Source: Spirochaetaceae bacterium (GTDB lineage Bacteria; Spirochaetota; Spirochaetia; DSM-27196; SLAA01). Taken from it: DNA of 51,554 nucleotides. The notes below the pieces were generated by a model that saw only the letters and a list, made by a program, of their open reading frames with translations, was not told the origin of the DNA and searched no databases. The stretch is from NCBI GenBank assembly GCA_003552985.1, contig PUPD01000026.1:1-51554 (forward strand). Direction: 5' to 3'. A program made the position numbers and the translations under genes. Shown piece after piece: positions 19,097 to 48,149 of this stretch (positions are counted from its first letter, which is position 1; every line of letters starts with the position of its first letter).

Positions 19097-20474
19097 GGGC
19101 CGCAGACCGGGGCGCGGCGGTAAACTCCACGCGGTCCACGCCGGCCTGCCGCAGCAGCTGTTCCACGAGCCGTTCGGCGGATACGCGTGCCTGCTCGAGC
19201 ACTCCGCGCTGCACCGCGTGCCGTTCGGCTCGCTCGGCAACGTAGGCGGCGATCTCGCGGTACGCCGCCGGCGACAGCGCAATGTCAGGGTACGGGTATG
19301 CATCGGGATCGATGTCGACCACCCGCACTTGCGTCACCGTGGGGGCGGGGAGGAAGACCGTCGCTACCTGCAGCGCCTCGCTGCCGTCCAGCGCATCGTT
19401 ACCCTCCGGTGTCTCGCTGCCGCCCAGTGGCTCGCTACCGTTGGCGGGCGCCGCTTCGGCCGTGATCCGCAGCAGGCTCTCAGCCGGCGCGGAGGCTGCC
19501 GGATTGCCGGCGGCTTCCTCGCCCGTAGCCCCCGCGCGCGCTTGGCAGCCGCCGTCAGGAGCGCCGAGCGCCTCCAGCGTGAAGCCGGCGCTCACGATCA
19601 CATCGAGCACAACGAAATCGCCCACCCGGCGGGTACCGATTCCATGGCAAGCGACGATGTCGTACGCGGCGAGGAAGTCGCGTTCCTCGGCGCTGACGGC
19701 ATCCTCATACCGGCGGTCTTCGTGCCGGAGGCGACCGAGAATACTTGCCACCGACATGCCTTCCGGCATGTAGGCGAACGGAAACACGGTTCGATAGCGA
19801 TACTCGAGGGTGTGCAGCCGGCCGAGGTCGTACAGCTCCTGCAGGAGGAGGTCATGGCCCACAACGCGCGCGCGGCGAATCGGCGCGAAGGTTCGCTGCA
19901 ACCGCCTGAGATAGGGGCGCCCCAGAATCAGCGCTGCCGCCAGCAGCACCAGAACCACAATTACGAGGATGCGCAGGGGCTGTTGCCGGCGGCGGGATCT
20001 GTGAGTCATCAAAACCGCCCTCCATACAGAAACGGCGCGCTCCAGAAGCCCATGCTCCGTGGCGTCCTCGGCTACGCGATCCTTCACTCGCTCGAGCTCG
20101 GCGGCGATCTCCAGCCAGCCGAGACGGCGCCCGCGCGCACGGAGTTGGTACTGGTGTATGCTCTCTTCATCGACGTCGATCGAGAGCACGCGAGCACGCG
20201 GCAGGGTCACGAGAAGGCGCTGCGGTGCCCCCGGAACCCGGCGCACCTTGAGCCCTTCGGTGAGGTCGAGCCCGGCGTGTATGCGGTAGTCCACCGCGAA
20301 CAGGACCCGGGTATCGACCATCCGCCATAAGAAGGCCGAGCGCTGCTCGCTGATATAGACGATATCACGATGGAGCGCCTCGGCGGTGTGTAGCTCGAAG
20401 AGCTGCTGCAGCTGGCGCCTCGGCCGCGTGGTGTGGCGGCTGATCAAGTTATACCATAAACTGCACGGGCTCAT
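19074..20474 (-). CDS. Membrane protein with two DUF4230-like halves
   Basis: 466 aa. A first DUF4230-like half (residues about 20-155) has the family pattern: a receptor-like strand region, AGLDLTEGLKVRRV, then LLVTLPRARVLSIDVDEESI. A single hydrophobic span near residues 168-187 (LRILVIVVLVLLAAALIL) separates it from a second, similar half. That half has FVVLDVIVSAGFTLEAL and, after an Ala/Gly/Ser/Glu-rich insert with GSE repeats, ATVFLPAPTVTQVRVVDIDPDA, the same LP-motif strand. DUF4230 proteins usually have one membrane span followed by one copy, so this duplication flanking the span is unusual. Function unknown. The promoter TTGTCT-17-TATAAT ends 8 bases from the ATG, so the gene looks leaderless. 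Confidence 0.8.
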   Translation of the reverse strand: MSPCSLWYNLISRHTTRPRRQLQQLFELHTAEALHRDIVYISEQRSAFLWRMVDTRVLFAVDYRIHAGLDLTEGLKVRRVPGAPQRLLVTLPRARVLSIDVDEESIHQYQLRARGRRLGWLEIAAELERVKDRVAEDATEHGLLERAVSVWRAVLMTHRSRRRQQPLRILVIVVLVLLAAALILGRPYLRRLQRTFAPIRRARVVGHDLLLQELYDLGRLHTLEYRYRTVFPFAYMPEGMSVASILGRLRHEDRRYEDAVSAEERDFLAAYDIVACHGIGTRRVGDFVVLDVIVSAGFTLEALGAPDGGCQARAGATGEEAAGNPAASAPAESLLRITAEAAPANGSEPLGGSETPEGNDALDGSEALQVATVFLPAPTVTQVRVVDIDPDAYPYPDIALSPAAYREIAAYVAERAERHAVQRGVLEQARVSAERLVEQLLRQAGVDRVEFTAAPRSAALYTPELH

Positions 20475-34057: not shown

Positions 34058-34186
34058 CAGTCCTCGTCGGGGTTTCCGTGGGTGGCCGGGGCCCGGGCAC
34101 CGGGCCGGACGCGGAGACCGTTCAGAGTGTCATGTTCATCAGATCACGGTGAGCAGGCGGATACCGATAGGCAAGGAGGCAACGAA

Positions 34187-35278
34187 GTGGAACAGGCTCA
34201 ACAGTATGTGGGTTCACGCGTCAACCCGGATGATCTGAAGCTGTTTTGTATGCGAGCGATGGAGCAGGCAGGTCTCTCCCGCCGACACGCCGAACAGACT
34301 GCCGAGGTATTAGTAACCACGGATACCTGGGGAACGTTTACGCATGGTACGCGGCAACTGGTACCGCTGCTCAACAACGTAAAGAAAGGGGCGCTCAATG
34401 CGGGCGTTGAGCCGGAGATTGTCTCCGAAGGCCCAGGCTGGACGCTCATAGATGGTCACTATGCGATGCCGATGGTTTCCTCGCAACTGGCCATGCGTTC
34501 CGCGATCGATAAAGCGAGAAGCAGTGGAATTGCGTATTCCGGAGTGCGTCATAGCAGCCACTACGGGGCTGCCGGGTACTATGCGCTGATGGCAGTGGAG
34601 CACAATATGATCGGCCTGTCATTCAGCAATGTGGACGTCTGCATGACGGTGCCCGGGGCGCGGGCGCCGGTGATGGGAACGAACCCGTTGGCCTACGCAG
34701 TTCCGGCGGGGGAGGAGCGTCCGGTCTTTATGGATATTGCGACCAGCGTTGTCGCCATCAGCAAGGTGATCGCTGCCAAGACAGCGGGCAAACCCATTCC
34801 CGACAACTGGCTGGTGGACGAGGAAGGCCGGCCGACTACAGACACCTCTGCGTACCCTGCACGGGGAGCCATTCAACCGATGGCAGGGCACAAGGGCTAC
34901 GGCATCGCGCTCTTGATCGAGATCCTGTCCGGCGTGCTTACCGGCGCCTCATTTCTCTCCGGAATCGGGCGTTGGTTGGAGGAAGAGCCGAAACCGGCCG
35001 ACGAAGGTCATGCCTTCATCGCTATGAGCGTGGAGAGCTTTATGGAGGCGGATCAGTTCAAGGCGCGCATGGACTCGATGATTCGGGAGATCAAGAACGC
35101 GCCGAAGGCCAAAGGCGTGGATCGCATCTATCTACCGGGCGAGATGGAATGGGAACGAAGTGAAGAGGCGCATCGAAGTGGTATTGAGCTGCCCGACTTT
35201 GTCCTGACGAATCTGTTCAAGGTCGCCGAAGAGAACGATCTTTTGGAAAATTTGATCTCAATACTAAAGAAGGAGTAG
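34187..35278 (+). CDS. Ldh2/malate-dehydrogenase-type NAD(P) oxidoreductase
   Basis: 363-aa member of the Ldh2 family (PF02615), distinct from Rossmann-fold lactate dehydrogenases. Visible motifs are the N-terminal helical part DLKLFCMRAMEQAGLSRRHAEQTAEVLVTTD, HGTRQLVPLL near residue 50, GVRHSSHYGAAGYYALMA near 117 with the catalytic His, GTNPLAYAVPAGEERPVFMDIATS near 160 and GAIQPMAGHKGYGIALLIEIL near 228. The family oxidises or reduces 2-hydroxyacids such as malate, ureidoglycolate, sulfolactate and 2,3-diketogulonate. In this island a hydroxyacid or keto-sugar acid is the likely substrate. GTG start with AAGGAGG 7 bases upstream. Confidence 0.88.
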   Translation: MEQAQQYVGSRVNPDDLKLFCMRAMEQAGLSRRHAEQTAEVLVTTDTWGTFTHGTRQLVPLLNNVKKGALNAGVEPEIVSEGPGWTLIDGHYAMPMVSSQLAMRSAIDKARSSGIAYSGVRHSSHYGAAGYYALMAVEHNMIGLSFSNVDVCMTVPGARAPVMGTNPLAYAVPAGEERPVFMDIATSVVAISKVIAAKTAGKPIPDNWLVDEEGRPTTDTSAYPARGAIQPMAGHKGYGIALLIEILSGVLTGASFLSGIGRWLEEEPKPADEGHAFIAMSVESFMEADQFKARMDSMIREIKNAPKAKGVDRIYLPGEMEWERSEEAHRSGIELPDFVLTNLFKVAEENDLLENLISILKKE

Positions 35279-35282
35279 CTGC

Positions 35283-36656
35283 GTGGCGATCGAGTCGATA
35301 AACCCTGCCACCAGCGAGCTGATTCGTGAGTATCCGGAGATGTCTCACGAGGAGGTCGGGCGTGCCCTGGAAGTGCTTGCGGATGGGTTCGGCCGGTGGC
35401 GCAGAGTTCCGCTGCAGGAGCGCGCGGCCCGTCTTACCACCGTCGCCGGGTTGCTGCGCGAGCGCACGGATCGCTATAGCTGGATCATGACGCAGGAGAT
35501 GGGCAAGCCGCTCAAAGATAGCCGGGCCGAGATAGAGAAATGTGCCTGGGTATGTGAGTACTACGCCGAGAACGGTGCGGCATTTCTAGCGGAGGAGCTG
35601 GTCGAGACCGAGGCGACCGAAAGCCTGATCGGGTATCAACCGCTGGGCACTGTGCTTGCTGTGATGCCCTGGAACTTTCCGTTCTGGCAGTTTTTCCGTT
35701 TCGGCGCTGCGGCGCTCATGGCGGGCAACACCGTGGCGCTCAAGCACTCCTCCAATGTTACCGGCTGCGCGCTTGAAATCGAGCAGCTTATGGCCGATGC
35801 CGGGTTCTCGGACGACGTGTTCCGCGTGCTGGTGGTCGGCGGGCGGCGAATCGCCGAGATTATCGACCGGCCGGAGATCTCGGCCGCGACGCTAACCGGG
35901 AGTACGCCGGCGGGGCGAAGCCTGGCCGAGGCCTGCGGGCGCAACCTCAAGAAATGCGTGCTTGAGCTCGGCGGCAGTGACCCGTATCTGGTCCTCGAAG
36001 ACGCGGACCTCGAGCATGCAGTAACGAGTTGTGTGACTGCACGGCTATTTAACTCGGGGCAGAGCTGTATAGCCGCCAAGCGTTTCATCGTAGTGGAGCC
36101 GGTGGCCGAGGAGTTCGAACGGCGGTTTGTGGAAGCGATGGCGAGCCGAACAGTCGGGGATCCTCTGGACGAGGCCACCGCGATCGGTCCCCTGGCGACC
36201 GTCGACCTCCGGAACGAGCTCCACGACCAGGTGCAACGCAGTATCGGCGGCGGTGCAGTATGTCTTCTGGGCGGTGAGGTTCCGGAGGACCCCGGGGCGT
36301 ACTATCCGCCGACAGTGCTTACAAACGTGGCGCCCGGTACGCCGGCCTACGAGGAGGAGCTGTTCGGCCCGGTAGCGGCAATCATCAGGGTCGGAGATGA
36401 AGCCGAGGCGATCCGGGTGGCGAACGATACCTTCTTCGGCCTCGGTGGAGCGGTATTCACCGCCGACCTCCAGCGCGGCAAACGGATTGCGCGCGATGAG
36501 ATCGAAGCCGGATGCGTGTTTGTCAACGAGTTTGTGCGCTCAGATCCGCGCATGCCGTTCGGCGGCGTAAAAGGCAGCGGCTACGGCCGCGAGCTCTCGT
36601 ACTTCGGTATCAGAGAGTTCGTCAATGTCAAAACAGTATGGGTGCGTGAGGGGTAA
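35283..36656 (+). CDS. NAD(P)-dependent aldehyde dehydrogenase
   Basis: 457-aa aldehyde dehydrogenase superfamily enzyme, similar in size to the short succinate-semialdehyde dehydrogenase group. Motifs: MPWNFPFWQFFRF near residue 130, the catalytic Glu in LELGGSDPYLVL (about 227), the catalytic Cys in FNSGQSCIAAKRF (about 262) and EELFGPVAAI near 358. Likely substrates in this setting are semialdehydes such as 2-oxoglutarate semialdehyde, glyceraldehyde or glycolaldehyde. The GTG start lies 4 bases after the Ldh2-type gene with AAGGAG upstream, so the two genes form one operon. Confidence 0.9.
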   Translation: MAIESINPATSELIREYPEMSHEEVGRALEVLADGFGRWRRVPLQERAARLTTVAGLLRERTDRYSWIMTQEMGKPLKDSRAEIEKCAWVCEYYAENGAAFLAEELVETEATESLIGYQPLGTVLAVMPWNFPFWQFFRFGAAALMAGNTVALKHSSNVTGCALEIEQLMADAGFSDDVFRVLVVGGRRIAEIIDRPEISAATLTGSTPAGRSLAEACGRNLKKCVLELGGSDPYLVLEDADLEHAVTSCVTARLFNSGQSCIAAKRFIVVEPVAEEFERRFVEAMASRTVGDPLDEATAIGPLATVDLRNELHDQVQRSIGGGAVCLLGGEVPEDPGAYYPPTVLTNVAPGTPAYEEELFGPVAAIIRVGDEAEAIRVANDTFFGLGGAVFTADLQRGKRIARDEIEAGCVFVNEFVRSDPRMPFGGVKGSGYGRELSYFGIREFVNVKTVWVREG

Positions 36657-36856: not shown

Positions 36857-37849
36857 ATGAGGAAACTGTCTGTAATGATGTTGGCTTTGGTGTTGATTGC
36901 CGGTGGGTTGGCATTCGCCCGTGGCGCGGCTGAGCCTGACAGAATGGAACTGAGTTTCGCGCACGTCTACGAGCCCGATCTCGCGTATCACCAGGAGGCG
37001 GTATGGGCGGCTGAGCAGATCGAGGAACGGACCGACGGGCGTATTACGGTGACGGTGTACCCTGCGGCGCAGCTCGGCAGCGAGTCTGAGATCGCCGAAG
37101 GACTGGACCTGGGAACTTCCGACATCATCTATGCCGGAGCGGCCTTTCTCGCCGGTGATTACGGGGAGCTTGCGATCGCCGAGGGACCGATGGTCTTCCG
37201 AGACTTTGAGCACTGGATGGCTTTCGCTGAAAGCGACCTGTTTCAGGACTTGGCTGAGGGATATCGCAATCAGACCGGGCATCACATCGTGGCACCGACG
37301 TACTACGGCGTTCGCCACGTGAGTTCCAGCCGGCCGATCAGGACGCTCGACGACTGGAGCGGTCTATCGATCCGCGTTCCGGACGCCCCGCTGTACCTGA
37401 TGTTCGCCGACGCGTTCGGCGCGAGTGCCACCCCAATCGCCTTCGCCGAGGTCTACCTCGCGCTGCAGCAGGGCGTGGTGGATGCGCAGGAGAACCCGCT
37501 GCCGACGATCAGGGGAATGGCGTTCTACGAGGTGCAGGACTATATCAATCTCACCGGGCACATGACCAATACCCTCAAGACCGTGGTTCGCGGAGACCTC
37601 TGGGATAACCTCAGCTCCGAGGACCAGCAGATTCTGTCGGAGGTTCTCTGGGAAGCCGCGATGCGCAGCTCACAGGCGATATACGACGAAGAGCTGGAGC
37701 TTGCCGAGTGGTTTGAGGAGCAGGGTCTGACCATCGTCCGGGATATCGACCGCGATGCTTTGATGGAAGCGGTCGAGCCGAAGTGGAGAGGGCCTGACGC
37801 GCCCTGGAGTGAGGAGACGCTCGAGAGGATGCTGGAGCTCGCTGAGTAA
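36857..37849 (+). CDS. dctP: TRAP transporter solute-binding protein (DctP family)
   Basis: 330 aa. A signal peptide (MRKLSVMMLALVLIAGGLAFA) directs it to the periplasm. The DctP signature is visible: FAHVYEPDLAYHQEAVWAAEQIEERTDGRITVTV at the start of the mature protein, LDDWSGLSIRVPDAPLYL near residue 165 with the carboxylate-binding Arg, and FAEVYLALQQGVVDAQENPLPTI near 195. It delivers an organic or sugar acid to the DctQM membrane unit. The SD AAAGGGAGG is strong, and the gene has its own consensus promoter with the shared operator. A terminator-like hairpin after it would give more binding protein than membrane subunits. Confidence 0.93.
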   Translation: MRKLSVMMLALVLIAGGLAFARGAAEPDRMELSFAHVYEPDLAYHQEAVWAAEQIEERTDGRITVTVYPAAQLGSESEIAEGLDLGTSDIIYAGAAFLAGDYGELAIAEGPMVFRDFEHWMAFAESDLFQDLAEGYRNQTGHHIVAPTYYGVRHVSSSRPIRTLDDWSGLSIRVPDAPLYLMFADAFGASATPIAFAEVYLALQQGVVDAQENPLPTIRGMAFYEVQDYINLTGHMTNTLKTVVRGDLWDNLSSEDQQILSEVLWEAAMRSSQAIYDEELELAEWFEEQGLTIVRDIDRDALMEAVEPKWRGPDAPWSEETLERMLELAE

Positions 37850-37888
37850 CGGTCTACCCTCTTAGCAAATGCAGCGACGAATTTCCGG

Positions 37889-37924
37889 CCGGGAGAGCGA
37901 CAGTGCTGTGCTCTCCCGGTTTTT
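37889..37924 (+). terminator. Intrinsic terminator-like hairpin between dctP and dctQ
   Basis: CCGGGAGAGC (37889-37898), an 11-base loop, GCTCTCCCGG (37910-37919), then TTTTT (37920-37924). A complete intrinsic terminator inside the TRAP operon; no new promoter is obvious before dctQ, so it probably works as a partial terminator. Confidence 0.8.
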
Positions 37925-37986
37925 GTCTTCAGATGACGTGAAATCAGAGCAATGGATTAACGCTTTTCAACGAGGTCAAAGGGAAA

Positions 37987-38595
37987 ATGAGTAACGAAAG
38001 ACCTGACGAGGGTCGGAGTGGAACCGACGAGATAATTGAACTGATCAAGGAACAAGCTGCCGCCGAGCCGGAGTTCTCCTACCGTGATTACCACATTGAG
38101 GACTATATTGCGTTGGCATTCTTCTGGTTCTTGTCCTTGGTCGTGTTCTCGCAATTTTTCACGCGTTACTTCCTGGGCTTCTCTATGCCGTGGACCGAAG
38201 AAGGAGCTCGCTACCTTCTCGTTTGCGTCACCTTCACCGGGTCAATCATGGCGGTGCGCAGGAACTCGCACATATTCGTGGAGTTTCTCTACCGCTACCT
38301 GCCACGCAAAGTCGGCCGAGCCTTTATCTCGTTCGTGGATCTGTCTCGAGTGGTGTTTATGATCATCGGCCTCTGGTTGGGATACCGGATTATCCCGATT
38401 ACGATGCGGCGCTACCTGGTCACGATGCGGATCCCGTTGGGATGGATTTACTTGGTAGTGACGGTCGGCTTCGCGCTCATGCTTGTTTGGTCGGTTGTGC
38501 TTGCATACCGACACTGGCGCGACGCGTACGTCCCGTCGTGCCGCGAAGACCGGATTGGAGCAGAGTCGGAGAGCAAGGGAGGTGGTTCAACGTGA
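37987..38595 (+). CDS. dctQ: TRAP transporter small membrane subunit (DctQ family)
   Basis: 202 aa with four hydrophobic spans: IALAFFWFLSLVVFSQFF, YLLVCVTFTGSIMAV, FISFVDLSRVVFMIIGLWLGY and IPLGWIYLVVTVGFALMLVW. The family motif around MPWTEEGARYLLVCVTFTGSIMAVRRNSHIFVEFL is clear. It carries an unusually long charged N-terminus of about 35 residues before the first span. It pairs with DctM in the inner membrane. Its stop overlaps the dctM start. Confidence 0.9.
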   Translation: MSNERPDEGRSGTDEIIELIKEQAAAEPEFSYRDYHIEDYIALAFFWFLSLVVFSQFFTRYFLGFSMPWTEEGARYLLVCVTFTGSIMAVRRNSHIFVEFLYRYLPRKVGRAFISFVDLSRVVFMIIGLWLGYRIIPITMRRYLVTMRIPLGWIYLVVTVGFALMLVWSVVLAYRHWRDAYVPSCREDRIGAESESKGGGST

Positions 38596-39869
38596 CAGCA
38601 TTTGTCATCATCGGTGTTTTGGTGCTGCTGATCTTGGGCGTTCCAATCGCGATAGCGCTGGGGGGCGCCTCGATGGCATGGGTGTACATCACTCAGCGCG
38701 TTCCCGACTTCATCATTATGCAACGCCTCGTTGGAGGGGTGAACAGCTTTCCGCTGCTCGCGGTGCCGTTCTTCATTTTTGCAGGGAACCTGATGAATGC
38801 TGCAGGCTTGACCACTCATATCTTCGGCTTTGCTCGGTCCCTCGTGGGGTGGATGCGCGGCGGCCTGGGGCACGTCAACGTCGGCGCCAGCATCATATTC
38901 GCCGGTATGTCCGGGGCTGCGGTCGCCGATGCGGGTGGTCTGGGAACCATCGAGATCAAAGCGATGACCGATGAAGGGTATGATCGGGACGTCTCGGTGG
39001 CGATAACCGCGGCGTCTTCGACCATAGGCCCGATCATCCCGCCGAGCCTGCCGTTAGTGGTGTATGGGGTTATGGCCCAGGCCTCAATCGGGAGGTTGTT
39101 TATCGCCGGGATCGTGCCGGGCCTTCTGATGGGTCTTTCGCTCATGGTGTTGATCCGGTTTTTTGCACACCGACGCGGGTACCCGGTGGACGCCAAGTTC
39201 AGCGTGACGAACGTGTTCCGCACGCTGTGGAAAGGGTTGCCGGCGCTGTTCACTCCAATACTGATTATCGGCGGTATTGCGCTCGGTATATTCACGCCTA
39301 CCGAGGCAGCTATCGCGGCTTCGGCCTACAGCTTGCTGCTCGGTGTTGTGGTGTATCGGTCGATATCCTTCAAGCAGTTCGTTGCGGTCAGCCTGGATAC
39401 GCTCGAGACCACCGCGGTGATTCTCTTTATCGTTGCCGGGGCCTCTATCTTCGCTTGGATCCTGACCGTGATGCGCGTGCCGGCGATGTTCGGCGAGATG
39501 CTGTTCACGATCAGCGAGAATCCGATTATCCTCCTGCTGCTCATCAACGCTGTCTTATTCGTGATTGGGTTCTTCATGGAGACGATCGCCGCGATCACGA
39601 TCATGGTGCCGGTTCTGCTGCCGGTAGCCCTGTCAATCGGGATTGATCCGGTGCATCTTGGTATCTTCATGATCTTGAACCTGATGATCGGTCTGCTCAC
39701 GCCGCCGGTGGGGATGGTGCTCTACGTATTGTCGCGCGTAGCCAGGATGCCGTTCGAGGACTGCGCCAAAGCTACGGCGGTGTTCATCATACCGCTGGTG
39801 ATCGTGCTGCTGCTCGTGACCTTTATACCGCAGCTGTCGCTCTGGCTGCCGGACCTGATCTTTAACTGA
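38592..39869 (+). CDS. dctM: TRAP transporter large membrane subunit (DctM family)
   Basis: 425 aa, the normal DctM size, almost entirely hydrophobic spans (about 12). The sodium-coupled transport subunit of the TRAP system. Typical segments: FPLLAVPFFIFAGNLMNAAGLT, GAAVADAGGLGTIEIKAM, SSTIGPIIPPSLPLVVYGVMAQ and LGIFMILNLMIGLLTPPVGMVLYV. The GTG start at 38592 overlaps the dctQ stop (GTGA) and follows GGAGGTGG, so dctQ and dctM are translationally coupled. Earlier in-frame codons read as hydrophilic nonsense. Confidence 0.95.
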   Translation: MTAFVIIGVLVLLILGVPIAIALGGASMAWVYITQRVPDFIIMQRLVGGVNSFPLLAVPFFIFAGNLMNAAGLTTHIFGFARSLVGWMRGGLGHVNVGASIIFAGMSGAAVADAGGLGTIEIKAMTDEGYDRDVSVAITAASSTIGPIIPPSLPLVVYGVMAQASIGRLFIAGIVPGLLMGLSLMVLIRFFAHRRGYPVDAKFSVTNVFRTLWKGLPALFTPILIIGGIALGIFTPTEAAIAASAYSLLLGVVVYRSISFKQFVAVSLDTLETTAVILFIVAGASIFAWILTVMRVPAMFGEMLFTISENPIILLLLINAVLFVIGFFMETIAAITIMVPVLLPVALSIGIDPVHLGIFMILNLMIGLLTPPVGMVLYVLSRVARMPFEDCAKATAVFIIPLVIVLLLVTFIPQLSLWLPDLIFN

Positions 39870-39960: not shown

Positions 39961-40998
39961 GTGAAAGCGCTGGTGAAGTACGACAAAGGCCCGGGTAATA
40001 TGGAGATCCGGGATCTGGAAGAACCGACGCCCGGCTTCGGTGAGGTTAAGATCGAGATTGCGAATACCGGAATCTGCGGATCGGACCTTCACATCTACCA
40101 TTACGATATCGACATCCCGATCAATCCGCCGGTTACCACCGGACACGAGTTCGCGGGGACGGTGGTGGAGGTTGGCTCGGGTGTTACGAGCTGTGCGGTC
40201 GGCGACCGTGTGACCTCGGAGACCGCGTATAGCTACTGCGGAGAATGCCGCCATTGCCGTGACGGCTACTATAATCTCTGCAATCAGCGGCGGACCCTGG
40301 GATATTGGCATAATGGTGCGTTCGCGCGCTACACGGTTGTGCCGGGCGACCGGGTGCATCGGCTGCCTGAGAGCATAGACTTTCGGGCCGGAGCGATGCT
40401 GGAACCGTTGGCGTGTGTAACGCATGCCGCGATCGATCTGACGAGCATCACAGAGGGAGACTGGGTGCTCGTAACCGGGCCGGGTGCCATCGGGCTGCTG
40501 GCGCTGCAAACCGCTCGCGCGCTGGGGGCACGGGTGATCGTGTCCGGTACCTCGGTTGACCGGGAGCGGCTGGACGCTGCGGCGCAGCTTGGGGCAGAGC
40601 GGACGATTGAGGTCGGGACAACCGATCTGGAAGAGGAGATCAAAACGCTCACCGACGGCGCGGGCGTTGATGTGGTTCTGGAGTGCGCCGGCAGTGAGAA
40701 GGCGGTTGATTCCGGGCTGCGTGCGATTCGTAAGCGTGGGCAGTTCACTCAGGTCGGCCTATTCGGCCGCCCCGTCACCATCGAGTTCGAGAAGGTGTGT
40801 TTCAAGGAGCTGAAGCTAACCGGCTCAATCGGCTCAAAGCGCAGTTCCTGGGAAGCGGCGATTCAGCTTGTCGCCGACGGTAAGGTGCGGACGCATCCGC
40901 TTATTTCGCATGTTCTGCCGCTCACCGAGTGGGAGCATGCGTTTCAGCAGTTCGAGAACAAGGTCGGACTGAAGCTGATGCTGCAACCGGTGGAGTGA
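39961..40998 (+). CDS. Zinc-dependent medium-chain dehydrogenase (sorbitol/L-iditol type)
   Basis: 345-aa MDR enzyme. The catalytic zinc site shows Cys in [11 protein letters not shown] (about 39) and His-Glu in [14 protein letters not shown] (about 61). The structural zinc site is the four-Cys lobe [15 protein letters not shown] (about 90-104). The NAD motif is [13 protein letters not shown] near 175. This pattern is shared by sorbitol, L-threonine and sugar-acid dehydrogenases such as L-gulonate/galactitol types. It likely oxidises a polyol or aldonate to the ketose form. GTG start; GGAAGG upstream. First gene of a tight operon running to 48149, with 4 bases to the next gene. Confidence 0.88.
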
Positions 40999-41002
40999 GT
41001 CG

Positions 41003-42130
41003 ATGTCACGGAACACCACCATCACCGAGGTAGAGCCGTTCATTCTGCATGTCCCGGTTACGGGCCGCGTAGTCCAGGATAGCACGCATACGGTCACGCA
41101 TTGGGGGGTTGTCGGAGCTCGGGTGCGGACCGCGGGAGGACTGGAAGGGTTCGGCTATACCGGCACGCACGCGCATCTGCCTTCCGACCGGCTGATAAGC
41201 GCATGCATCCGAGATTCGTACGCGCCGCTCCTCCTGGGCGAGGACGCCTGCGACGTCCAGCGGCTGTGGTCGGTCATGTATGGACACCCGCCGGTGCAGT
41301 GGGTGGGCAGGACCGGGATCACTCACCTGGCCTTGGCCGCGGTGGACACGGCGTTGTGGGACATTAAAGCGAAGGCTGCCGAGCAACCGCTCTGGAAGCT
41401 GCTGGGCGGGGCCACCAAAGTGGCGCTGCCGGCCTACAATACCGACGGGGGCTGGTTGAGTCTTGACGCTGAAACGGTGGCCGAAAACTGCCGGCGGCTG
41501 GTCGAGGAAGAAGAATACAACGGCGTCAAGATCAAGATCGGCTCGGATGATCCCAACGCGGATCTGCATCGTGTCGAGCGGGTGCGTGAGGTAATCGGCC
41601 CTCGCCGGCAGCTTGCGGTGGACTGTAACGGACGTTGGCGGCTCACTACGATGCTTGCGGCCGCCCCGCGCCTCGCTGAGTTGGGCGTGCTGTGGGTTGA
41701 GGAGCCGATATTCTATGACGACCTGCCGGGTCATATCGAGTTGGCGCGCAGGATCAGTACGCCGATCGCGCTCGGCGAGCAGTTGTACTCGCTGGATGCG
41801 TTTCGCGATTTCATCTCCTCGGGCGCGGTGCATTGGGTTCAGCCGGATATAACCCGCTTGGGCGGCATCACGGAGTGGATTCGGGTGGCCGACCTGGCGT
41901 TGGCGTACCGCTTGCCGGTAGTCCCGCATGTCGGGGATATGGGACAGGTGCACGTTCATCTCGCCTATGCGCATCCGGCCGCGACGCTGCTTGAATACAT
42001 TCCGTGGATCCGGGAGTGTTTTGAGGAGCCGATCGAGGTGAAGCACGGGAAGTACCGTCGACCCGAACAGCCGGGCGCAGGCAGCACCTTGCGAAGCGAA
42101 GCGCTCGCAGAGTACGGACAGGAGGTGTAG
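41003..42130 (+). CDS. Mandelate racemase-subgroup acid-sugar dehydratase (copy 3)
   Basis: 375-aa enolase superfamily enzyme. Motifs: [18 protein letters not shown] in the capping domain, KIK in [15 protein letters not shown] (about 175), Asp in AVDCNGRW (about 207), Glu in [14 protein letters not shown] (about 234), Glu in IALGEQLYS (about 259), Asp in [13 protein letters not shown] (about 285) and His in [14 protein letters not shown] (about 315). The three dehydratases of the island are different enough from one another that they are unlikely to be recent duplicates. The substrate is unknown; an aldonate or aldarate is expected. It lies 4 bases after the alcohol dehydrogenase and 2 bases before the transaldolase gene. 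Confidence 0.87.
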
Positions 42131-42132
42131 CG

Positions 42133-43920
42133 ATGAGCGCAGTTCCCGCACAGGAACAACGCGAACAGATTCGCGCAGAGCGCGAGCGCAAACAGCGTGA
42201 GCCGGTCGAGCTGCTGCTCGAACGGGTTCGTGCCGGTGAAATCGAAGAAGCAAGCGGCCAGGCGCTGTTCCGCTGGAGTCCGGACGAGCGTGAACGCAAC
42301 CTGCAAACGTTTGCAACACAGGTCGCGGGCGTGTTTGATGGCGCGTCGGTCGCGGAACAGCGCAGTATTCTGCGTTTCTGCTTGAAGCTGGCGCTTGATC
42401 TCGGGAGCTTTCTGCCCGCCTGGCGCGCAGGGGGGCAGGCGGGACAGGCGGGGCAGACGGGGCAGGCGGGGCAGACGGGGCAGACGGGGCAGGCGGGGAT
42501 TCCCGAGTCTGCGCAGCGGATGCAGGCGCTGCTCGGCGAGCTCACCCGGCAGCGGCCGGAGCGAGGGGCCGAGCTTGCCGAACGCATCGGGAGCGAGCTC
42601 TTGTCCCGATTAGGCGCAGAAGGCGTCGGCGATGCGGGTGATGCAGCCCGAATCGCAGAGCAGGTGCGGGTGGATGAGCCGGGCGAGCACATCGCGGCGA
42701 TGTGGGACGAATACCGTGACTCGAACCTGCGAAGAATCGCTGAAGCGTATCTTCGCGGCGAGACGCGCACCGCGCTCGGTAACGATTACGCCGCGTTCCT
42801 GGAGCATGCCTTGCGTGTAGGGGCGTGCTCACAGACCACAAACCCGGTGCTGATCAAGGTCGCCTGGGACACCGATCCAACCGGGTGGAATCGTAGAATC
42901 GACACCATCATCCGGGAACAGCATGGCGAGGAGGCGATTCGACGAGCGCTAACCGGTCCGGAGAACGAACGAGACAAGTTTATACGCCGGCTCAACTCGG
43001 TGATAACGACTGAAGTCGTGGAGCATAACTGCAGAATGCTTCGCGACATCTTTCTGGTGACCGAGGGGCGCGAGGGGCAGGTCAACCTCCAGGTGAGCCC
43101 AGAACACTATGCCGACAGCGACGCGATGGTTAAGCAAGCGACGGAGGTCTACGCGGACCTGCAACGGCGCCTGCACGGTGTACCGAACGTCCTGATCAAG
43201 ATCCCGGCTACCCCGGCCGGGAAGCAGGCGGCTGCCGAGCTCACCGAACGTGGGATCGGCGTGACCCTCACCCTGACGTTCTCGATGTTTCAGGCGACCG
43301 AGCTCGCCGACGCAATTCGAGGAGGGACGGCGCTGGTCTCGAACATCGCGCTGATGAACGGCCGACTGGCCTACCCTGTCCGGGACGAGCTGTCGGACGC
43401 GGGAGTGCCGGGCGGCGTGGAAGCGGCCCGCTGGGCCGGCGTGGCCGTTGCGCGGAAGGTGTGTCATTCACTGTACCGTTCCGCGGGTGAAGGGGGGCTG
43501 GGAATCGATCCGTCACGGGTTCGGCTGCTGATAGCGTCGCTGAGAGACTATGACGATTGGTTCCCGGATATTACCGAGATGCTCGGCGTGCCCGGGATCA
43601 CGGTCTTCCCGAACGTTCGGAGGGCGTTTGACGCTCGCCCGCGAGAGTTTGATCTCAACGCCGTACAGGGTGCAACGCCGGCTGAGGTTGTTGAGACGCT
43701 CTGTGCGAGCGAGTTGTTTCGACAGGCCTGGTGGAGTCCGGCGGACGGAACGTTCGGGCGACCCGAGAATCCGCTCTCCCTGGCGCAGAGTGACGCGAGC
43801 CGCGTCGCGTCGTGGGTGCCGGTCAAAGCGACCTTGGATCAGTTCATAGAGGGATATCGCAGCATGAACGCGATGATCGGCGAGCGGCTGCAGAGATTGA
43901 CGCAGGAGCGTACGGAGTAA
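42133..43920 (+). CDS. Long transaldolase-family protein with N-terminal extension and repeat tract
   Basis: 595 aa, nearly twice a typical transaldolase. The first 210 residues are charged and helical (EQREQIRAERERKQREPVE) and contain a Gly-Gln-Ala/Thr tract at residues 101-122 encoded by a 9-bp tandem repeat. From about residue 214 it is a transaldolase barrel: ACSQTTNPVLIKVA, QVNLQVSPEHYADSDAMVKQATEVY, VLIKIPATPAGKQAA with the likely Schiff-base Lys at about 356, and GVTLTLTFSMFQATELA. Transaldolase moves a dihydroxyacetone unit between sugars. Its place between a dehydratase and the tagaturonate epimerase, with nearly no gaps, suggests it acts on a keto-sugar or keto-uronate of this pathway; that is inference. 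SD AGGAGG. Confidence 0.82.
   Translation: MSAVPAQEQREQIRAERERKQREPVELLLERVRAGEIEEASGQALFRWSPDERERNLQTFATQVAGVFDGASVAEQRSILRFCLKLALDLGSFLPAWRAGGQAGQAGQTGQAGQTGQTGQAGIPESAQRMQALLGELTRQRPERGAELAERIGSELLSRLGAEGVGDAGDAARIAEQVRVDEPGEHIAAMWDEYRDSNLRRIAEAYLRGETRTALGNDYAAFLEHALRVGACSQTTNPVLIKVAWDTDPTGWNRRIDTIIREQHGEEAIRRALTGPENERDKFIRRLNSVITTEVVEHNCRMLRDIFLVTEGREGQVNLQVSPEHYADSDAMVKQATEVYADLQRRLHGVPNVLIKIPATPAGKQAAAELTERGIGVTLTLTFSMFQATELADAIRGGTALVSNIALMNGRLAYPVRDELSDAGVPGGVEAARWAGVAVARKVCHSLYRSAGEGGLGIDPSRVRLLIASLRDYDDWFPDITEMLGVPGITVFPNVRRAFDARPREFDLNAVQGATPAEVVETLCASELFRQAWWSPADGTFGRPENPLSLAQSDASRVASWVPVKATLDQFIEGYRSMNAMIGERLQRLTQERTE
42433..42498 (+). repeat. 9-bp tandem repeat inside the transaldolase gene
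   Basis: Seven units of GGGCAG(G/A)CG (one unit starts GGA) plus a final GGG. The unit length is a multiple of three, so copy-number changes would keep the frame and only lengthen the Gly-Gln-Ala/Thr linker. Confidence 0.9.
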
Positions 43921-43924
43921 CGTG

Positions 43925-45706
43925 ATGAGCAGTATTGAAGTAGGTGCCCTCCGAATTGACCCGCGGAAGAATCCGGCGGTGCTGGATACCGCCTCATGGA
44001 ATCCTGAGGAAGTCTACGGCGAGGTCAAGCGGGCCCCCGAGGGCTTCTTCAAGACCCTCGCAGCGTTGGATCCGGTCCGGCCGCGGATAGCCGGCGACGG
44101 TGCCTTTGAGTGTGAACAGTTACGGGTGTATCCCGGTTCGTACGTCTATCGGCATGGCTCGCGTTGGTGTCTGGCGGAAAGCGTGGGCGACGGCCGACGC
44201 GTGCTGCTGGAGCTCGCACCCGCCGGCAAGAACGCGGGTGACCTGGTATCGGATACCCCGTTTAGTCGCAGTGTCGGCGATGGATCAACGGTCGTGCGAC
44301 TGCACCCAACCGACATGGACACCCTAGCGCGCTACTTGCGCCACATCGATCCGGAGAAGGGCCCCCGTGCACTCGGCGGCATTCCCCGGATGGGGATCGG
44401 CGTCAGGCACTCGGTCTACATCTGGCCGGGGGCAATCGATGCGATGCAGAGGGGGGCGTTTTCCGCGAATCTGATCCAGAACTCGGTGCGTGAGCTGCAT
44501 ATGCTGAAAACGCTCACCGAGGGCCGACCGTCGCGCGAGAACTACCTGTTCAGTTTCGGGCGCATTCAGGAAGGGCACAGCGGGAGCACCTTTGAGGGCT
44601 TGTGGGTCGCCGGCGTGCTGCAGGCAGTTGCATCGGAGGCAGTGCCGCGTTACGGGGCGGACGCCGACCACATTCAGGTAAAGCGCGGAAGCGACGGCCT
44701 GGAGCGTGCCAAGGAATACCTCGATGCCTCGCGCTACTACTCGTTCTATACCCTGGACGTTTCCGACGTTCTCAACTATCGGGCAACCTGGGAGTTCTCG
44801 ATCGCCGAGTCGGAGCGAATGCTGCATGAAGCGATTCCCGACCGGGGCGCTCGAGACGACCTTCTGGCCTACCACGGGCGGGCGCGCTGGTTCTTCGGTC
44901 AGAGCTACAGTGCCGATGAAGCGACGATCGGCAGGTTCGTCGGAAAGTACTGGTCGGCGTTGAATAACGTGGAGGAGCTCGTGCGGTACCTCCAGTCGCT
45001 GCGCGACGGTGTGCCGTTCGACCTTGAGATAAGCATCGATGAGACGCCCGCGGAAGTTGCCACCTTTGATGCAATAACCAGTGAGTCGGAGCTGTTGTTT
45101 CTGATGCTGGAGATCTCGCGTCGCGGGATGCCGGTCACGCATTTGGCGCCGAACTTCGGCATCGAGAAAGGTACCGACTATCGTGGTCCCGACGGCCTTC
45201 CCGGCCTGGAGAAGCGAGTACACCGGCTGTACCTGCTCGCCTCGGAGCTCGGCTTCTTTCTTGACTGCCACTCCGGCGACGATCTCAGCCAAGCAACTCG
45301 CCGGACCGTCGGACGGGCTACCGCCGGCCGAGTACATTTTAAGGTATCGCCCTCGCTGCAGGTGCTGTTCGCCGAAACAGTACATCACATGTACCCGCAG
45401 ATGTTCGAATGGTGGTGGAACGATACGTTCGCATGGGTTAAGCAGGAAGCTGAGGCAGGCTCAACGTTCGCGATCGACTGTTTGCGGGAGTGCGAACGGA
45501 GCGCCGACCCCCGCCCCCACCCAAACCACAGTTTGTTTGAGCACTACAACTTTGCGACGGTGGGAAGGAGGTCGCCGGACGGCGCATTTGAGAACCGCGA
45601 GCGGTTCTACGACCTGCCTTCCGAGTTCAACCGGGAGATCGGGCGTCGGGTTTCGGACCGGCTGTGTGCACTAGCTGCGGACGTGTTCGATCACCCGCCC
45701 CGCTAA
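43925..45706 (+). CDS. uxaE: Tagaturonate/fructuronate epimerase, UxaE family
   Basis: 593 aa. Motifs shared with the UxaE family (C-epimerase between D-tagaturonate and D-fructuronate first found in Thermotoga): YGADADHIQVK near residue 243 with likely metal-binding Asp and His, HLAPNFGIEKGTDYRG near 405, LDCHSGDDLS near 445 and HFKVSPSLQVLFAE near 468. It is longer than the family members I recall (near 480-500 residues), the extra being mostly an N-terminal region of roughly 100 residues. The enzyme lets galacturonate-derived tagaturonate enter the fructuronate branch. The ATG at 43925 is preferred to an adjacent GTG because GGAG is then 7 bases upstream. The transaldolase stop is 4 bases before it. 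Confidence 0.8.
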   Translation: MSSIEVGALRIDPRKNPAVLDTASWNPEEVYGEVKRAPEGFFKTLAALDPVRPRIAGDGAFECEQLRVYPGSYVYRHGSRWCLAESVGDGRRVLLELAPAGKNAGDLVSDTPFSRSVGDGSTVVRLHPTDMDTLARYLRHIDPEKGPRALGGIPRMGIGVRHSVYIWPGAIDAMQRGAFSANLIQNSVRELHMLKTLTEGRPSRENYLFSFGRIQEGHSGSTFEGLWVAGVLQAVASEAVPRYGADADHIQVKRGSDGLERAKEYLDASRYYSFYTLDVSDVLNYRATWEFSIAESERMLHEAIPDRGARDDLLAYHGRARWFFGQSYSADEATIGRFVGKYWSALNNVEELVRYLQSLRDGVPFDLEISIDETPAEVATFDAITSESELLFLMLEISRRGMPVTHLAPNFGIEKGTDYRGPDGLPGLEKRVHRLYLLASELGFFLDCHSGDDLSQATRRTVGRATAGRVHFKVSPSLQVLFAETVHHMYPQMFEWWWNDTFAWVKQEAEAGSTFAIDCLRECERSADPRPHPNHSLFEHYNFATVGRRSPDGAFENRERFYDLPSEFNREIGRRVSDRLCALAADVFDHPPR

Positions 45707-45798: not shown

Positions 45799-46620
45799 AT
45801 GGATGAGCGGTTTGTTGGGAAGTGCGCCCTTGTAGCGGGCGGGGCCCAGGGGATTGGGCGTGGTGTAGTTCAGCGCCTGGCTGACGAGGGGGCCGAGGTA
45901 GCGATTGCGGATCTGGATATCGAGCGTGCCCGCCAGGCTGCGGAGGAGCTGGAGGCCGCCGGCTGTAGGGCTGTTGCGGTCCAGGTTGACCTCGCCGATA
46001 TCCACTCGATCGAGAATATGGTCGGTGAAGCGGTTCACAGGTTACGGCAGATCGATTTCTTTGTGAACACCGCGGGCATCGTTCATAACACTCCGTTTCT
46101 GGAGGTTACCGAGGAAGAATGGGACCGCGTGGTGGATATCAATCAGCGTGGAGCGTTGTTCTGCATGAAAGCCGTGAGCCGCCACATGCTCGAGCGTGTT
46201 CCTGAGGAGGTGAAGGCGCGCGGACGGTCGGCGACATCGTACGGGAAGATCGTCAATTTCTCCTCGATTTCGGGCAGACGCGGTCGGCCGCTGCAGGTTC
46301 ACTATGCTTCGGCGAAGGCGGCAGTGATCAGCCTGACACAATCGGTGGCATTAGCGCTCGCGCCTTACAACATCAATGTGAACGCGGTAAGCCCCGGGCC
46401 GGTACGTACGCGAATGTGGGACATCAACGTGGCCGAGAAAGGCCGCATCTTGGGGCGCAATGCCGAACAGGAAGCCGAGCAGTTTATCGATCAGATTCCC
46501 CTCAAACGGGCCGGGACCGCCGAGGACATGGCGGCAGCGGTAGCGTTCTTATGCTCGGCGGATTCCGACTTCATCACCGGGCAGACGCTGAACGTTGACG
46601 GCGGATTCGAGATGAACTGA
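45799..46620 (+). CDS. Short-chain dehydrogenase/reductase
   Basis: 273-aa classical SDR. The dinucleotide loop GGAQGIGRGV is near residue 15, NTAGIV near 92, the catalytic Ser in NFSSISGRRG (about 155) and the YASAK catalytic pair near 172; SPGPVRTRMWD follows. It resembles sorbitol/gluconate-type sugar dehydrogenases but lacks the UxuB-specific motifs of the SDR at 29090-29911. The likely substrate is a polyol, aldonate or keto-sugar acid of the island. A 92-base gap separates it from uxaE. Its TGA stop overlaps the ATG of the next gene, so the two are coupled. Confidence 0.87.
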   Translation: MDERFVGKCALVAGGAQGIGRGVVQRLADEGAEVAIADLDIERARQAAEELEAAGCRAVAVQVDLADIHSIENMVGEAVHRLRQIDFFVNTAGIVHNTPFLEVTEEEWDRVVDINQRGALFCMKAVSRHMLERVPEEVKARGRSATSYGKIVNFSSISGRRGRPLQVHYASAKAAVISLTQSVALALAPYNINVNAVSPGPVRTRMWDINVAEKGRILGRNAEQEAEQFIDQIPLKRAGTAEDMAAAVAFLCSADSDFITGQTLNVDGGFEMN

Positions 46621-48149
46621 TGGGATCGCCCTTACCGTACCTGGACCGGGCAACTTTGCGCAATCTCCGCGGACGGCGAGGCGGTGTGGGTGACGAGGGC
46701 GGTGCGGCCGGGGCGAGCGGCGATGCCGCGCATCCCATACGGCTCGTGCAGTTCGGAGAGGGCAACTTTCTGCGCTGTTTCGTCGGCTGGATGGTCGATG
46801 TTGCTAACGAAGCGGGCTCTCTGGATGCCGGAATAGCGGTGGTGCAGCCGCTGGAGCGCGGAACGGTCGACACGCTGCGGAAGCAGGGCGGACTGTACAC
46901 GGTGGTCCTGAAAGGCGTCCGAGACGGGCAGTTGCATACATCGTATCGGGTTGTTACGGCCGTTCAGGACGCGCTCAACCCGTATCAAGAGTGGGACCGG
47001 TTCCTTACCCTGGCGAGGTCTGAAGCGCTAGAGTGGTTTGTGTCGAACACCACCGAAGCCGGCATCTCGTACGAGGCCTGCAGCCCTCCGGCGGGTGAAT
47101 GTCCGTCTTCCTACCCCGCGAAGCTGACCGCCTTTCTCCACGAGCGGTTTCGGCATTTCGACGGGGATCCGAATCGCGGGCTTCACATTCTTCCCTGCGA
47201 GCTGAACGAATCTAATGGGGATAGGCTGCGTGAGATCGTCCTGCGACACGCGGCTGATTGGGAGCTCTCGAGCGCGTTCGTCGCATGGCTGGAGACGGCG
47301 AATTGCTTCTTCAATACGCTGGTGGACCGTGTGGTTTCCGGGTATCCAAAAGACTTTGTGGATGAGCTCGAAGGTGAGCTGGGGTACCGGGACCGTCTGA
47401 TGGTGATGGGGGAGCTCTATCACTCCTGGATCATCGAAGACCCGGAGCAGCGCAGCGCCGCTCTGGCTTTGGAAGCGGCGGGGCTGAATCTCAAGCGAGT
47501 GTCCGACCTCCGCCCGTACAGACAGCGGAAGGTGCGGATACTGAATGGAGCCCACACCGGGATAGTTCCCGCGGCGGTCGCAGCTGGTCTGGAAACCGTG
47601 CAAGAGATGATCGAGGATGAGGTCTTCGGGCCTTTGACCCGGCAGCTGTTGTTTCGGGAGGTCCTGCCCTACGTCCCAGTCTCGCAGGATGAGGCGCAGG
47701 AGTACGCCGAGGCGGTGCTCGCGCGCTTCGCCAACCCCGCGATACGCCATTACCTGAGAGACATTGTCCTCAACTCGGTGGCCAAGTTCTCGGTTCGGGT
47801 GTTCCCGACCATCGTGGATTACGCGGCTGCAAAAGGCGAGCTCCCGCCGATCGCGACCTTCTCGCTTGCCGCCCTGATATGGCTTTACGGCGCAGCCGCG
47901 AGAGGCGACAGCCGCCTGCAGGAGGTTGTGCGAGATCGCGAGGACATCGTGCAGCGCTTCAGCGAGGCATGGGAAGCGTGCTCGCGGCAAGGGGACTACC
48001 GGCGCCTTGTGGCCGCGGTGGTTCCGGCGGTCGCCGGGGACGAACGCGATGCGCCGGCGGGGCTCGTTGAGGCGACGGCTCTGCAGGTAGAGCGCATCGA
48101 GCGTGGAGGCCTGAAAGCGAGCGCAGGGCAGCTCCTGACCCGGCCGTGA
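46620..48149 (+). CDS. uxaB: Tagaturonate reductase (altronate oxidoreductase), UxaB type
   Basis: 509-aa member of the mannitol dehydrogenase (polyol-specific long-chain dehydrogenase) family. The N-terminal Rossmann part has PIRLVQFGEGNFLRCFVGWM near residue 39 and the UxaB-like AVVQPLERGTVDTLRKQGGLYTVVLKGV. The C-terminal domain holds the catalytic pattern KVRILNGAH (Lys, Asn, His) near residue 302 and later VSVLPY-type blocks. It reduces D-tagaturonate to D-altronate. The start overlaps the SDR stop (TGATG). An Ala/Gly-rich insert near residues 20-35 looks like an unstructured loop. Ends at a hairpin shared with the convergent aldolase gene. Confidence 0.85.
   Translation: MGSPLPYLDRATLRNLRGRRGGVGDEGGAAGASGDAAHPIRLVQFGEGNFLRCFVGWMVDVANEAGSLDAGIAVVQPLERGTVDTLRKQGGLYTVVLKGVRDGQLHTSYRVVTAVQDALNPYQEWDRFLTLARSEALEWFVSNTTEAGISYEACSPPAGECPSSYPAKLTAFLHERFRHFDGDPNRGLHILPCELNESNGDRLREIVLRHAADWELSSAFVAWLETANCFFNTLVDRVVSGYPKDFVDELEGELGYRDRLMVMGELYHSWIIEDPEQRSAALALEAAGLNLKRVSDLRPYRQRKVRILNGAHTGIVPAAVAAGLETVQEMIEDEVFGPLTRQLLFREVLPYVPVSQDEAQEYAEAVLARFANPAIRHYLRDIVLNSVAKFSVRVFPTIVDYAAAKGELPPIATFSLAALIWLYGAAARGDSRLQEVVRDREDIVQRFSEAWEACSRQGDYRRLVAAVVPAVAGDERDAPAGLVEATALQVERIERGGLKASAGQLLTRP

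Follow-up and report, generated by a model that had tools for sequence, protein, structure and literature searches.

The transaldolases of the TAL_FSA family (PF00923) share a barrel fold, a Schiff-base lysine and a set of phosphate-site residues. FSA and TalB have been described as interconvertible by an exchange of those residues that position the catalytic water (PMC13259622). For the sulfofructose transaldolase SftT / BmSF-TAL of the sulfo-TAL pathway, the account given is that a C3 glycerone unit is taken from a ketose acid of six carbons and transferred, so that a C3 acid aldehyde remains (PMC11659671). The known bacterial hexuronate isomerase pathways are described in one source as running through reduction, dehydration and KDG (PMC6353982). 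For UxaE, one report proposes epimerisation by a retro-aldol reaction via a dihydroxyacetone-like enediolate (PMC11194214, where the carbon is numbered differently).

The gene considered here is found in a window of 51,554 nucleotides, which is the whole stretch of spirochaete DNA that was analysed; its features are given in Table 1. The barrel fold, the Schiff-base lysine and the phosphate-site residues of PF00923 transaldolases are common to its product. The reaction logic proposed for the enzyme is that of SftT / BmSF-TAL, from which it differs by its subfamily and size, by having a UxaE-family epimerase as the partner and by its putative substrate. Compared with the canonical UxaE (PF16257), this neighbouring partner keeps the family motifs while being about 590 aa long, 19-22% identical to the canonical members compared and only partially matched by the profile. 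The occurrence of the extended clade beside a sugar-acid epimerase suggests, as far as sequence comparison goes, an unrecognised way of splitting sugar acids.

Table 1. Features of the extended transaldolase-family gene and its surroundings in the window
Feature	Position	Strand	Remarks
Ldh_2-type 2-hydroxyacid dehydrogenase and aldehyde dehydrogenase	34082..36656	+	
TRAP transporter genes DctP, DctQ, DctM	36857..39869	+	
Zinc-dependent sugar/polyol dehydrogenase	39961..40998	+	
Enolase-superfamily sugar-acid dehydratase	41003..42130	+	
Ribosome-binding stretch	42114..42132	+	AGGAGG 7 nt 5' of ATG 42133
Extended transaldolase-family gene P0001	42133..43920	+	one ORF, 595 aa, ATG start
N-terminal helical extension proper, residues 1-194	42133..42714	+	kept in ten genomes; no match to a recognised family or fold
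Seven 9-bp units CAGRCGGGR, (Gln-Ala/Thr-Gly)x7, residues 102-122	42436..42498	+	disordered loop within the extension
Transaldolase-type barrel, residues 195-595	42715..43917	+	Lys356 (Schiff base), Asp218, Asn237, Gln320, Thr380, Met408, Arg411, Ser469, Arg471
Long, divergent UxaE-type (tagaturonate/fructuronate epimerase family) gene	43922..45706	+	conserved partner; more likely start ATG 43925
SDR dehydrogenase and tagaturonate reductase-subfamily protein	45799..48149	+	the latter above the NCBIfam cut-off

Barrel, active site and distribution of the enzyme

The Pfam profile TAL_FSA matches residues 234-505 with 93 bits against a cut-off of 27 (E 2.7e-26), and the relative at locus L085 reaches 49.3 bits with the same profile. 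In the structure model, residues 195-586 match solved transaldolases with the best Z of 34.3 over 316 residues (rmsd 2.6), the nearest structures to the barrel being the transaldolases of Neisseria gonorrhoeae and Corynebacterium glutamicum. With a profile match above the gathering score and a barrel fold containing the Schiff-base lysine, the protein belongs to PF00923.

The active site was compared with that of E. coli K-12 TalB and FsaA in a residue map, from which L036 was left out as covering the extension only. Lys356 aligns with TalB K132 and FsaA K85. The other TalB residues kept are D17 (D218), N35 (N237), T156 (T380), R181 (R411), S226 (S469) and R228 (R471). The TalB residues E96, N154 and Ser176 are replaced by Q320, Thr378 and Ala406, and the enzyme resembles FsaA in having Gln at the Glu96 position (Q59 in FSA) and Ala at the Ser176 position. 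Unlike FsaA, it is a much larger protein and has Met408 where FSA has Tyr131 and TalB has Phe178; Met was found there in all 23 homologues covering the position. The NCBIfam transaldolase and FSA models gave matches far below their cut-offs, so that the protein stays below all of them; its best score as a true transaldolase (EC 2.2.1.2) was 69.9 bits versus 367, with Glu96 and Phe178 both replaced. The FSA signature is represented by Gln59 and lacks Tyr131, the tyrosine associated with FSA activity. Since the Tyr131 position is occupied by Met408 and that of Asn154 by Thr378, the protein has neither a full transaldolase signature nor a full FSA signature. Judging from the residues, Gln320 hints at aldolase-like behaviour, and Met408 fits neither signature.

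Eleven genomes were found to carry the extended gene. The extension itself was seen in ten of them (G000, G020, G034, G038, G072, G403, G550, G534, G519 and G520; in G034 the gene is split over two contigs), and the eleventh, G085, is represented by the gene tail only. In the phylum sample, 3 of 392 genomes, the window's own included, gave a match at E<=1e-40. The gene was present in 5 of the 139 genomes in the family of G403 and in 3 of the 45 in the order of G020. A peptide-pattern scan of genome contigs, which reaches close relatives only, returned three loci, all of them in spirochaetes. In the plasmid collection, 38 of 72,556 records matched, all of them under 60% identical and spanning less than 80% of the query, and no extended homologue was found there.

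In the tree, which was computed from the barrel residues alone, the ten extended proteins group in a single clade (support 100/100, branch length 4). Outside it are 17 short spirochaete homologues, the short gene of G093 and TalB; several of these outside branches are long, and the sister group of the extended clade is unsure. The alignment A2 and the tree were made without L022-L025, L027, L030 and L031 (the first two had short or broken frames, and the others were dropped for brevity), and L004 and L036 were also left out of the tree. As the ten extended proteins form one clade, the extension was probably gained once. On the sequence data, the enzyme is a rare and divergent member of the transaldolase/F6P-aldolase family, forming a small clade of single origin.

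Pairing with a long UxaE-type gene

Of the 11 genomes, 10 show what lies downstream of the extended gene. In nine of these, a long UxaE-type gene is directly next, and in the remaining one (G072) it follows after one LarA-type gene. The UxaE matches in 100 relatives, split by score and length according to our own reading, fall into three classes, namely canonical, about 420 aa and long divergent. When the transaldolase and UxaE match tables of this one set of 100 genomes were compared by eye, a transaldolase-family gene was found within 5 kb of UxaE in six genomes, always with the long class. One of the six, G093, has a short transaldolase without the extension; the pairing is therefore with the barrel. 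This short gene (L055, 3856-4884) is placed directly 5' of the long UxaE, its branch is long and its kinship is uncertain. Long-UxaE matches in G031 (L058) and G060 (L060) were not used because of unclear frames.

The UxaE-type neighbour in the window passes PF16257 with 72.1 bits against 27.1, on a partial profile match, and contains GADADH, EISIDETP and HSGDD. The UxaE motifs GADxDH, ExSxDE and HSGxD are kept in 12 of the 14 long members; GADxDH is missing from G039, and both GADxDH and HSGxD from G068. Members of the long class (about 560-600 aa, 19-22% identical to the canonical ones compared) are found in operons of their own with TRAP, SDR and Zn-dehydrogenase genes.

Long UxaE genes without a transaldolase partner occur in G002, G030, G039 and G068. 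Two of these, L056 (G002) and L057 (G030), are otherwise near-identical clusters that are missing exactly the dehydratase-transaldolase pair, the dehydrogenase and UxaE genes adjoining each other; G002 belongs to the same genus as the window, and G030 to the same genus as L002. As long UxaE clusters exist without it, the pair is, by comparison of the loci, an optional two-gene module. Moreover, the extended gene is not needed for the core pathway, because close relatives run nearly the same cluster without it.

In the other clade, LarA or a nickel-pincer isomerase is found in place of the dehydratase (NF033504 in G072 and NF052515 in G534, above cut-off). At L086 (7735-9057) and L034 (5762-7036), genes of nickel-pincer isomerase group 22 (NF052515) and a LarA-type racemase are located beside the extended transaldolase. 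Split transketolase genes occur near the extended gene in G072 and G534, as recognised by Pfam, and in G519 and G550, as judged by ORF resemblance; G085 has a transketolase pyrimidine domain and Fe-ADH. The clusters differ in their dehydratase, LarA-type and transketolase genes, so that the substrate may not be the same in all clades. The split two-subunit transketolase at L086 (13553-15399), near the extended transaldolase-UxaE pair, recalls the sulfo-TK layout.

Candidate reaction and competing explanations

The explanation that is put forward tentatively, at somewhat less than an even chance, is that the protein is a divergent class I (Schiff-base) aldolase/transaldolase of a sugar-acid catabolic operon, acting on a 5-keto-hexonate, likeliest D-fructuronate or a close relative. 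The substrate, the order of the steps and the choice between release and transfer of dihydroxyacetone are what we infer in it. A tagaturonate reductase-subfamily protein above cut-off is present in four clusters (the window, L002, L057 and L088), which makes fructuronate or a similar 5-keto-hexonate the likely substrate. Beyond this gene in the window, a DHDPS-type gene and a PfkB kinase close to KDG-kinase models lie on the other strand.

The acid would enter via the TRAP transporter and then be oxidised or isomerised to a tagaturonate-type ketose acid, whose C4 would be inverted by the UxaE-type neighbour to the fructose-like configuration. Lys356 would form the Schiff base, and the enzyme would then cut the C3-C4 bond. 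Dihydroxyacetone would be either released or passed to glyceraldehyde 3-phosphate to give fructose 6-phosphate, and the remaining C3 semialdehyde acid (tartronate semialdehyde) would go to the neighbouring dehydrogenases. Transaldolases require the fructose-type 3,4 configuration, and for this reason a C4 epimerase beside a C3-C4 Schiff-base lyase makes chemical sense. The bond broken in the retro-aldol step proposed for UxaE would be the same one that the extended enzyme would cut.

This enzyme could also be an ordinary pentose-phosphate transaldolase with a decorated N-terminus, as the phosphate-site residues R411, S469 and R471 are kept together with Lys356. The possibility is a poor one: the gene has a catabolic operon setting and a conserved UxaE partner, a branch length of 4 separates its clade from the short spirochaete transaldolases, and Gln320, Met408 and the scores far below the family cut-offs do not agree with such a role. 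An equally poor chance is given to a sulfosugar enzyme, that is, a sulfofructose-type transaldolase of a sulfo-TAL/sulfo-TK-like pathway. The UxaE-type protein would then serve as a C4 epimerase (e.g., for a sulfo-galactose-type sugar), with sulfolactaldehyde and sulfolactate as the substrates of the aldehyde and Ldh_2 dehydrogenases. The Ldh_2 protein is indeed nearest to the L-sulfolactate dehydrogenase model (E 3.8e-69, below cut-off), and the matches of the SSADH-like aldehyde dehydrogenase, none of which reaches its cut-off, include the sulfoacetaldehyde dehydrogenase model. The transketolase genes of the other clusters point the same way, SqwGH being described as the transketolase of the sulfo-TK pathway (PMC11659671), and BmSF-TAL is among the fold matches of the barrel (Z 18.8 over 198 residues). 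However, ordinary transaldolases fit the fold better, the genes scanned included no recognisable sulfoquinovosidase or SQ isomerase, and the tagaturonate reductase-subfamily and enolase-superfamily genes point to carboxylates.

A wider proposal, more doubtful than that of the sugar-acid aldolase/transaldolase itself, is a new spirochaete sugar-acid route. In this route, hexuronates or hexonates would be cleaved at the C3-C4 bond by a UxaE-type C4 epimerase together with extended Schiff-base aldolases. The products would be tartronate semialdehyde and dihydroxyacetone (or fructose 6-phosphate), the usual reduction-dehydration-KDG route would be by-passed, and the helical domain would be an obligate part of the aldolase. 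No description of such an enzyme was found in those parts of the literature that were searched. If true, the direct ketose-acid aldolase would be the carboxylate counterpart of sulfo-TAL glycolysis, the reductant spent on the reduction step would be saved, and biocatalysis would gain a new dihydroxyacetone aldolase.

The N-terminal helical domain and the 9-bp repeat

Reading the DNA signals, the extension is very likely translated. An internal start near residue 200, with the upstream part left untranslated, was named in the original prediction as the case that would overturn it, and in-frame ATG codons are indeed present at residues 130 and 190. No AGGAGG-like site was found upstream of either, whereas AGGAGG precedes the ATG at 42133; the weak GGAG sites that were seen stand before TTG codons, and the extension is kept at the protein level in ten genomes. 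Owing to this AGGAGG and to the purifying selection on the extension, such a start is extremely improbable. For the extension, the comparison of L002 with L036 gives a dN/dS of 0.18 (162 codons). A 79-codon stretch of it gives 0.34 against L003, versus 0.11 over 372 codons of the barrel, and the values for L002 against L007 are 0.48 and 0.16, respectively. By these codon comparisons, purifying selection acts on the extension, which changes more quickly than the barrel but still evolves as a protein.

The structure model of the full protein, built with 25 homologues taken unchanged from the window and the loci, is one compact, confident chain (mean pLDDT 90.9, pTM 0.91). Its N-terminal part comprises eleven helices, from 6-21 to 198-207, with a block mean pLDDT of 80-97 outside the repeat, and the helical nature foreseen for the extension is borne out in the model as a confident all-helical domain. 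Of the 210 residues originally ascribed to the extension, about 195 are additional to the ordinary transaldolase fold, since transaldolases can be aligned with the last helix (198-207); the extra part as such is real. An extension is absent from all 17 short spirochaete homologues in the tree, in line with the claim that it is untypical of transaldolases.

Pfam gave no domain above cut-off in the extension. The PDB sequence search with it returned nothing below E 0.17, the weaker matches being unrelated secreted and eukaryotic proteins that were treated as chance. Folded alone, the extension reached a mean pLDDT of 75.3, lower than with the barrel. With this model, Foldseek produced no match at E<=0.001 and the best VIA Z was 7.4 over 127 residues; the structures matched by fold were for the most part designed helical repeats and large helical proteins of eukaryotes, and were again treated as chance. 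The search for the extension alone in other proteins, proposed along with the original prediction, found only transaldolase-fused copies among 100 related genomes. The idea of a domain shared with other proteins was rejected, as 5 of these 100 genomes carry it (E < 1e-30), always fused; the other matches, at E 0.001 or worse, were taken as chance.

The suggestion that the extension recruits partner enzymes has found no support here. The extension was seen only fused to this enzyme, and its model is less confident without the barrel, which fits an integral part better than a docking unit that acts independently. A docking module that recruits, for instance, the UxaE-type epimerase in order to channel the reactive semialdehyde would suit the strict gene neighbourhood with the long UxaE class and the co-occurrence of the extension with the long epimerase. 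It is nevertheless unlikely, considering that G093 pairs a long UxaE with a short transaldolase without the extension, that it was found on no other proteins in the 100 related genomes and that the model is a single compact chain. As an integral part, the approximately 195 N-terminal residues would be a helical domain gained once in the clade and packed on the barrel, with an oligomer interface, an active-site lid or a contact with the epimerase as its candidate roles. In a family of enzymes that has been studied so thoroughly, the domain is a candidate for a new fold or interface.

The seven 9-bp repeats claimed originally are present. The repeat pattern gave six overlapping matches genome-wide, all at this locus, and when one mismatch was allowed the 3.93 Mb yielded no other site. 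None of the nine other extended homologues has the repeat, the window genome being the only one that does. It was thought to join the extension to the barrel; the tract instead lies inside the extension, where the model shows a loop of low confidence from helix 94-104 to helix 123-140 (pLDDT < 50 at residues 106-118, which make up most of the repeat), and about 70-90 ordered residues separate it from the barrel. The repeat is not the barrel joint, since the alignment with solved transaldolases starts near residue 195, about 75 residues past the repeat, and the first barrel strand is formed by residues 214-217. Its position within the extension and its absence in relatives also dispose of a flexible linker to a recruiting domain.

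The near-uniform codons (CAG for Gln in 7 of 7 units, GGG for Gly in 6 of 7), the uniqueness in the genome and the loop position point to a recent DNA expansion by replication slippage. It would be a slippage-prone tract tolerated in a surface loop of the extension, and copy-number variation between strains, which was also predicted, is plausible given the near-identical units. A functional collagen-like element was considered and rejected: with the extension alone, PF01391 gave 15.5 bits against a cut-off of 27.2, and the repeat is confined to one protein, encoded by near-uniform codons, unique in the genome and poorly ordered in the model. Spread by a mobile element or into other genes was dismissed as well, no second locus being found in the genome. 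The 9-bp repeat itself is of little importance. Elsewhere in the window, at 19361-19441, Tandem Repeats Finder reported an imperfect 18-bp tandem repeat of 4.6 copies with 70% matches.
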